Shown: positions 51,720 to 53,982 of the stretch, in pieces
How the letters are laid out: each line of letters opens with the position of its first letter
Position numbering within the stretch: the first letter of the stretch is position 1
Source of the DNA: Bacteroidales bacterium
Lineage (GTDB): Bacteria; Bacteroidota; Bacteroidia; Bacteroidales; GCA-2711565
Assembly (NCBI GenBank): GCA_028280405.1
Contig: JANQLW010000033.1
Location: 1-64,000, forward strand
Direction: 5' to 3'
Length of the DNA stretch: 64,000 bases
Made by a program: the position numbers and the translations under genes
Notes under the pieces: generated by a model
Told to the model about the DNA's origin: nothing
Databases searched by the model: none
Seen by the model: only the letters and a program-made list of their open reading frames with translations

Positions 51720-51921
51720 ATGATATTTGTTATTTCGGCACAAAACTACCGAAATTATTTTTTTGATCAAATGAAAATGAAATTTTTTTGTTTACTTATT
51801 CACATTTAATGTAATAATTTATCGCGTTTATTAACATACAAGTAAGGATTGAGTGATTTTATAAAGTAGACATTTTAACGTAAGAGGTATTAATAAATAT
51901 AAGTCATTAAAAGTTATTAAT

Positions 51922-52491
51922 ATGTCTGATAAATTATTTAATGGATTCCGCAAGTCGAGTATAAGGTTAAGGAGATGGAACTATAATTGGCATGGTAAAT
52001 ATTTTGTTACTATTTGTACGTTAGGTATGACAGAATATTTTGGAGAAGTTAGGAATGGGAAAATGAGCTTGAATAATTCAGGGAAAATTGCAAAGGATAT
52101 TTGGATGAAAACTCCCGAGCATTATTCTTATGTTCAATTAGATGAATTTATAGTAATGCCAAATCATATTCATGGAATCATAATCTTGAAAAATTTCAAT
52201 TATGATAAAGATTTTTGTAAAGATGCGATTTATCGCGTCTGCATTAACGAAGAAGAATTAAATAGAAAAAATGGAGGTGGCATTTGTGGACAAAATAATC
52301 CGATGTTAAATCATAATTTATCAAGGATTATAAGATGGTATAAAGGAAGAGTCACATTTGAAATCAGAAAGAAATGTAAAGAATTTGAATGGCAATCCCG
52401 GTTTTATGAAAAAATTATTCGAAATGAAAAAGCTTTAAAATTGATAAGGAATTATATTAAAACGAATCCTAAACGTTATGAGGATAAATAA
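51922..52491 (+). CDS. Second RAYT (REP-associated tyrosine transposase)
   Basis: The 189-residue protein belongs to the Y1_Tnp family. The HUH motif is MPNHIHGIIIL (His82 and His84), and the region RIIRWYKGRVTFEIRK carries the candidate nucleophile Tyr. The ending KIIRNEKALKLIRNYIKTNP is typical of RAYTs. Residues 101-107 (DAIYRVC) are encoded by a copy of the element's own REP palindrome (52221-52240), inserted in frame; most relatives would not contain this. REP copies lie downstream. It differs strongly from the RAYT at 20682 and uses another REP family. Confidence 0.85.
   Translation: MSDKLFNGFRKSSIRLRRWNYNWHGKYFVTICTLGMTEYFGEVRNGKMSLNNSGKIAKDIWMKTPEHYSYVQLDEFIVMPNHIHGIIILKNFNYDKDFCKDAIYRVCINEEELNRKNGGGICGQNNPMLNHNLSRIIRWYKGRVTFEIRKKCKEFEWQSRFYEKIIRNEKALKLIRNYIKTNPKRYEDK
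52221..52240. repeat. REP palindrome inside the RAYT coding sequence
   Basis: AGATGCGATTTATCGCGTCT differs by one base from the intergenic REP unit AGACGCGATTTATCGCGTCT (52520-52539). It is read in frame as DAIYRVC. Confidence 0.9.
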
Positions 52492-52514
52492 AATAATTAT
52501 ATAAATTAAAAATT

Positions 52515-52637
52515 TGTATAGACGCGATTTATCGCGTCTGAATAGAACCATGATTTATGACAAAGAAGATGTGATAAATCGTATCTATATGTTTTGTGAC
52601 TTATGAAAAAAAGACGCGATAAATCGCGTCTATACAA
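52515..52637. repeat. REP array after the second RAYT
   Basis: Three units occur: 52520-52539 (AGACGCGATTTATCGCGTCT), a degenerate one at 52567-52586, and 52612-52631 (AGACGCGATAAATCGCGTCT). The outer two extend to a perfect 25-26-bp inverted pair with TTGTAT/ATACAA ends, forming a BIME-like unit. Similar 20-bp palindromes are widely seen in Bacteroidota genomes. No gene lies between 52492 and 52707. Confidence 0.9.
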
Positions 52638-52707: not shown

Positions 52708-53982
52708 TTATGAATACAACACCTCTTTCAATTCATCAAAATCGTTTTTGATTTTAATTTTATGACCTTGTTGCATATCAATATGATTAAACCTGTTGAA
52801 TGCAGGTATGGCTTTTCTAACCACAGATTCGAACTTAAAAGGATCGGCCGTAGCCAGAAAAATACCGGTTTGATAATTTTTTAAATTAGATTTAAGCGCT
52901 TCGTATGCAACAGCTCCATGTGGATCCAAAATATAATTGAAGTCTTTGTAAACCTGGGCAATTCTGTGAATCGTTTGTTTGTCACTTACAGATAAACTTT
53001 CTATATCACCCAGCATAATTAGCAAATCTCTGTTATACATATGCATAATTCTTTGTAAGTTGCTGGGGTTTCCAACATCCATAGCATTTGAATAAGTCTT
53101 TTCAGAAGGCCTGATATTTAATTGTCCATACTTTAGTAACTCATGGAACATCTTATTTTCATTAACACCGGCAATGAATTTATAAACAGGTAATCCCATT
53201 TTCATAGCCATTAATCCGGCAGTTAAATTTCCAAGGTTTCCGCAGGGGACAGACATTAGTACATCTCTTTTTTTATCAGATAGTTGTTTGTATGCCAAAA
53301 AGTAATATACAATTTGAGGGAGCAATCTGCCAATATTAATAGAATTTGCTGTAATCACATTTAATTCTTTTCTGATCAGCTTATTCCCCAAAACGGATTT
53401 TACCATCTTCTGACAATCATCAAAAGTTCCGTTAACTTCTATTGCATGAACATTGTTTGCATTATTGGTAATTTGTTGTTCCTGAAATTTACTGACCCCA
53501 TCTTTTGGAAATAAAACATAAACTTCAATACCTTCTTTACCTGAAAAGGCATTTGCTACTGCACTACCGGTATCTCCGGATGTTGCAACCAATACCCTGG
53601 TTTTTTCCTGATCCTTTTTTATTTCACTTAAGAATGAAGCCAGGAAATTTGCCCCCATATCTTTAAAGGCCATCGTTGGGCCATGGAATAACTCAAGTGC
53701 ATGTATATTTTCTTCTACCTGTACTAGCGGAATGTCAAAACCAAGAGTGTTTTCTACAAGTTTCATTAGATCTTGTTTATTAATAAATTCTCTGACATAA
53801 GGAAGTAGAATTTCTAAAGCGACCTCATGATTTGACATTCTTGAAAGGGCTCTGATGAATAATGGCCCGAATTCAGGGATATTGGCAGGCATGTACAAGC
53901 CTCCATTATCAGCCTGGTCATTAAATAATGCTTCTTTAAAGTTAACAGCTTGCAGCTTGTTCTTTGTATTTATATATTTCAT
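52708..53982 (-). CDS. thrC: Threonine synthase
   Basis: The 424-residue PLP enzyme converts O-phosphohomoserine to threonine. The PLP lysine lies in ELFHGPTMAFKDMGANFL; LVATSGDTGSAVANAF and NSINIGRLLPQIVYYF are conserved, and PCGNLGNLTAG is the phosphate-binding loop. The start overlaps the end of thrB by 41 bp, so the two are translated from one message. It lies behind a threonine-rich leader peptide, so its expression likely falls when threonine is plentiful. Confidence 0.97.
   Translation of the reverse strand: MKYINTKNKLQAVNFKEALFNDQADNGGLYMPANIPEFGPLFIRALSRMSNHEVALEILLPYVREFINKQDLMKLVENTLGFDIPLVQVEENIHALELFHGPTMAFKDMGANFLASFLSEIKKDQEKTRVLVATSGDTGSAVANAFSGKEGIEVYVLFPKDGVSKFQEQQITNNANNVHAIEVNGTFDDCQKMVKSVLGNKLIRKELNVITANSINIGRLLPQIVYYFLAYKQLSDKKRDVLMSVPCGNLGNLTAGLMAMKMGLPVYKFIAGVNENKMFHELLKYGQLNIRPSEKTYSNAMDVGNPSNLQRIMHMYNRDLLIMLGDIESLSVSDKQTIHRIAQVYKDFNYILDPHGAVAYEALKSNLKNYQTGIFLATADPFKFESVVRKAIPAFNRFNHIDMQQGHKIKIKNDFDELKEVLYS

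Follow-up and report, generated by a model that had tools for sequence, protein, structure and literature searches.

A REP palindrome within the reading frame of a Bacteroidales RAYT gene and its counterparts in related RAYTs

The locus described here raises the question of why some RAYTs carry a REP within their own reading frame and, more widely, of what keeps RAYTs and REPs matched. The DNA analysed (the window) is a stretch of 64,000 nucleotides from a Bacteroidales bacterium (contig JANQLW010000033.1, positions 1 to 64,000). An intact open reading frame of 189 amino acids at 51922..52491 on the plus strand specifies a RAYT (TnpA_REP), the sole one found in this genome, and the sequence AGATGCGATTTATCGCGTCT lies within it at 52221-52240.

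The RAYT gene and its in-gene REP

The protein matches the NCBIfam family NF047646 (REP_Tyr_transpos; E 7.9e-13, 48.5 bits, under the cut-off of 80) and Pfam Y1_Tnp, again under the curated cut-off, plausibly because a loop splits the domain. Its HUH motif, PNHIHG (residues 80-85), satisfies NH[IFV]H; the codons for H82-I83-H84 are at 52165..52173 (plus strand), and both histidines are invariant in an alignment of 44 RAYTs. In the same alignment W157 and Q158 are nearly invariant, as is the column of Tyr178 (YIKTNP; codon at 52453..52455, plus strand), which from knowledge of the family we take to be the catalytic residue. Eleven residues separate Tyr178 from the end of the reading frame, and no C-terminal domain follows the core. 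An AlphaFold model built from the 44-sequence alignment places a strand at residues 82-89 and a helix at 133-149, and between them a low-confidence stretch at 91-130 (pLDDT 57-62, versus 91-98 in the core). This corresponds to the variable beta3-alphaC loop (residues about 91-130; 52192..52311, plus strand).

The preliminary description had placed a 20-bp palindrome at 52221-52240, one base from copies at 52520 and 52612 and read in frame as DAIYRVC between the HUH and Tyr motifs, and the positions, mismatches and reading were all confirmed. The 20-mer differs by one base from 52520-52539 (plus strand) and by one base from 52612-52631 (minus-strand reading); it is translated as K100-D-A-I-Y-R-V-C107, between H82/H84 and Tyr178 and with the frame intact, and residues 100-107 fall within the low-confidence stretch of the model. 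The likeness reaches beyond the palindrome: 52214-52244 is identical to 52513-52543 at 28 of 31 positions, the TTTGTA foot included. We therefore regard 52214..52244 (plus strand; core 52221-52240, read CKDAIYRVC, with a degenerate 5' foot, GTAA) as a REP unit. A chance resemblance between the in-gene 20-mer and the REPs has a negligible probability, and is ruled out by shuffling: dinucleotide shuffles of the window gave no match to the 20-mer at 3 mismatches or fewer, and 2000 codon shuffles of the RAYT gene reached at most 21/31 against the downstream REP.

The in-gene hairpin is a weak one. Its 8-bp stem includes one G.T wobble, and as single-stranded DNA it folds at -5.9 kcal/mol (z-score -1.2), compared with -9.0 and -9.1 kcal/mol for two intergenic copies. 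Its palindrome score of 5.9, below the cut-off of 8.5, ranks low among the 99 RAYTs compared below, and it lacks a GTAG foot, so that constraint in this genome may have lapsed.

Other REP copies and the published subclass

Three further REPs lie downstream of the gene. The first, at 52513..52543 (plus strand; foot TTTGTAT), was recognized by sequence match and fold; the second, at 52567..52586 (minus strand), is degenerate, with 3 mismatches to the 20-mer; the third, at 52612..52637 (minus strand), is an exact 26-nt inverted copy of 52514-52539 and completes a REPIN-like pair. This pair lies between the 3' ends of the RAYT gene and a convergent minus-strand gene at 52708-53982, which from its sequence we presume to encode a threonine synthase-like protein. 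The third REP is followed by a T-run, which makes it terminator-like for the minus strand; no other such site occurs in the region scanned. It sits a short way beyond the end of the minus-strand gene and may terminate that gene's transcript. Upstream of the RAYT gene, ATTTATCGCGTTTATT at 51817..51832 (plus strand) is a possible half-REP remnant, a weak inverted match (88%) to 52609-52624; the stretch around it folds no better than shuffles.

The REP family of this genome is small: with up to 3 mismatches allowed it was found in 11 places, seven of them outside the RAYT locus. The feet are mostly degenerate, with GTAG in the copies on contigs C88 and C24 and GTAT or GTAA at the window copies. 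On contig C87, far from the RAYT, 2394-2413 is identical to the in-gene 20-mer and has an inverted partner 58 bases on, at 2452-2471; this is a second REPIN-like pair.

E. coli rayT is flanked by REPs, as the window RAYT is. The E. coli enzyme (RayT/TnpA_REP, subclass 2.2), solved with a bound REP hairpin as a REP-associated tyrosine transposase (PDB 4er8), has the same fold and is the best solved match to our model. The best palindrome anywhere in its gene scores only 5.8 and is located past the Tyr motif. The hallmark of TnpA_REP subclass 2.4, according to Quentin et al. 2018 (PMC6006769), is a REP that lies inside the gene, as a rule between HuH and Y, and leaves the frame unbroken. The same authors call this trait unique to that subclass, place it in the variable beta3-alphaC insertion, and report the subclass, which equals Bertels group 4, as abundant in Bacteroidetes and Cyanobacteria and in scattered phyla (PMC6006769). 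By its motifs and this published description the window RAYT fits subclass 2.4, sharing the NHIH and WQ motifs, the variable beta3-alphaC insertion, an in-gene REP that keeps the frame, flanking REPs and the want of a C-terminal extension. It departs from the consensus in its Y motif (YIKTNP instead of YIxNNP), in the REP foot (GTAT or GTAA next to the gene instead of GT[AG]G), in REPs that are not double-foot, and in the weakened in-gene copy.

Our literature search for REPs in frame within coding sequences covered journal papers and found two (PMC6006769, PMC3733652). REPs in other protein genes and the Rickettsia palindromic elements (PMC3733652) are likewise in-frame palindromes within proteins; all of these are scattered over unrelated genes, whereas the window palindrome sits in one loop of its cognate transposase. 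An in-gene REP in a RAYT is thus an already known trait, to which the window gene adds another case, and parts of the analysis of relatives given below may overlap with supplementary data of that paper (PMC6006769).

Loop palindromes in related RAYTs

Relatives were collected from 60 order-level genomes and a species-wide contig collection, with within-genome paralogues added. RAYTs whose HUH and Tyr motifs were both clear were retained, 99 in all with the window RAYT counted. A strong palindrome was present in the beta3-alphaC loop of 79 of the 99, as against 3/99 and 1/99 for equal-length regions before and after the loop and 30/1980 (1.5%) for shuffled loops. The preliminary description had seen in the in-gene copy a rare view of REP spread; with this frequency, and as a published trait of subclass 2.4 (PMC6006769), it is no rarity. 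Several RAYTs, L023 and L038 among them, have no loop palindrome and are otherwise intact.

Loops with a palindrome are longer (median 51 versus 30 amino acids, p = 1e-5), as insertion predicts. The earlier proposal that the element had inserted into its own transposase without breaking it thus stands in part, with a cognate REP copy, an intact frame and the longer loops on its side; core identity between the window RAYT and the relatives found is at most about 54%, and none of them shows an empty site, so that the insertion here is not datable. In genomes of the same genus the neighbouring threonine synthase-like protein is just 59-60% identical, and synteny was uninformative. Three near-identical Chlorobiaceae RAYTs, L109, L113 and L122 (90-94%), differ by indels of 12-39 nt beside the in-gene palindrome, which shows fast length change in the loop. 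Two different in-gene REPs share one loop in L080, L090, L048 and L053, and dispersed copies of both variants also occur in three Marinifilum genomes. L080 and L090, whose cores are 92% identical, at first seemed to have switched palindromes; this reading was discarded when alignment revealed both palindromes in both genes.

Related gene pairs are not independent, and the pair counts given here are descriptive only. Between RAYTs of 65-90% core identity the palindrome is 87% identical, the core DNA 63% and the rest of the loop 37%, a comparison that was not conditioned on a shared palindrome sequence. Likeness of the palindromes tracks relatedness of the RAYTs: at 30-50% core identity 0.5% of pairs or fewer share a palindrome, at 60-70% about half do. 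Stem changes were two-sided and paired in 612 cases and one-sided in 85, the former being over-counted, since only clear palindromes entered. Two Marinifilum species have identical in-gene palindromes in loops that are otherwise 64% identical; an off-centre TTCA variant is likewise unchanged between two RAYT genes of Marinifilum, with TTAA in most of the remaining near copies of one of these genomes.

Likeness to the REPs beside the same gene is frequent. A match of 19/20 or better occurs in a gene's own flanks for 22 of 66 in-gene palindromes, compared with 0.75% in the flanks of other RAYTs (permutation p < 1e-4), and two thirds have no near-exact partner within 1.5 kb. Several genomes are drafts and may hide further copies. 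In G001 (same genus, 87% complete) the in-gene copy, which forms a perfect, long hairpin and has paired changes (AAACGCG/CGCGTTT), is the only one found at 3 mismatches or fewer, and in G045 (97% complete) that of L150, at C104:2070-2087, is the only one at 1 mismatch or fewer. All three copies in a further genome, G007, are at the RAYT locus. The preliminary description had held that the same residues in relatives without nearby REPs would mean coincidence of sequence. This was seen in part: relatives such as L020 and L021 carry the same palindrome family and have no REP match within 1.5 kb. Coincidence does not follow, since the frame in which the shared palindrome is read differs among L020 and other relatives. 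These cases suggest instead that the in-gene copy is of long standing and able to persist after the flanking copies have gone.

Explanations for the in-gene copy

Even-centred loop palindromes are read in two frames, with counts of 25 and 36; the third frame, in which GTAG gives a stop (TAG), is used once. The identical 18-mer GACGCGATTAATCGCGTC encodes RDAINRVS or, in other genes, VETRLIASL, the frames differ in 14 of 50 related pairs that share a palindrome, and between L073 and L115 (82% core identity) indels on both sides shift the frame of nearly the same palindrome. This use of two frames tells us that the peptide is not what is preserved. A conserved protein motif, DAIYRV or DAINRV, with the palindrome as a by-product of its codons, could be argued from the shared DAINRV reading of L019, L033 and L049; L020 and L145, however, read the same DNA in another frame, the two frames are about equally used across families, and the palindromes vary widely between clades. 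Frame usage rules out a peptide constraint for the family, and we give this explanation very little credence. Judged from the sequences compared, it is the palindrome DNA and not the peptide that is kept across relatives. Quite improbable, too, is the in-gene copy as source of each genome's REP family, as the preliminary description had also proposed. Copies confined to the RAYT gene or locus in G001, for one RAYT of G045 and in G007 agree with such an origin, as does the identity of C87:2394 with the in-gene 20-mer, but the in-gene copy is further from the GTAG-footed consensus than some other copies in this genome are. The direction of copying is not readable from these data.

The main rival to the reading we prefer, and in our judgement a rather unlikely one, is that REPs repeatedly hop into a RAYT gene surrounded by REPs and survive only in the permissive loop, where the copy does nothing. 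It resembles the position taken by Quentin et al. 2018, who suggest that the in-gene REP has little effect on the protein (PMC6006769). A loop that is disordered in the model and longer when it holds a palindrome, loops with two REPs (L080/L090, L048/L053), the use of both open frames and the weak, drifting window copy would all suit it. A passenger should decay, however, and between related RAYTs the palindromes have diverged less than the coding DNA of the core; they persist where no other copy was found (G001, one G045 RAYT), and the Marinifilum TTCA variant was kept in two genes, although in one of the genomes the other near copies are mostly TTAA.

With modest confidence we therefore consider the in-gene REP to be probably a resident hairpin of the REPtron, that is, of the RAYT gene plus its REPs, inherited with the gene as part of that unit and kept at the DNA level by a role in cis or by homogenisation. 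A REP copy would have lodged in the disordered loop between beta3, which bears the HUH motif, and alphaC of a subclass-2.4-like RAYT, and the peptide that it encodes would be tolerated because the loop lies outside the catalytic fold. The hairpin, in DNA or mRNA, might then act in cis, bound by the RAYT on the gene or transcript that encodes it, and so tune expression or activity; alternatively, the single-strand cutting and joining by the enzyme might keep the in-gene and flanking copies alike. Against constraint at the DNA level stands the window copy itself, where score, G.T pair and foot look relaxed, and against maintenance stand intact relatives such as L023 and L038 and the many genes whose flanks hold no near-exact partner.

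For the family as a whole, conservation, frame-switching and paired changes in relatives point to maintenance at the DNA level, as opposed to the published view of little effect. It is possible, and we put it forward tentatively from these sequence comparisons, that the in-gene REP has a function in cis throughout this RAYT branch, the transposase binding the hairpin in the gene or transcript that encodes it, and that such self-recognition would keep the enzyme and its REP family matched over evolution.
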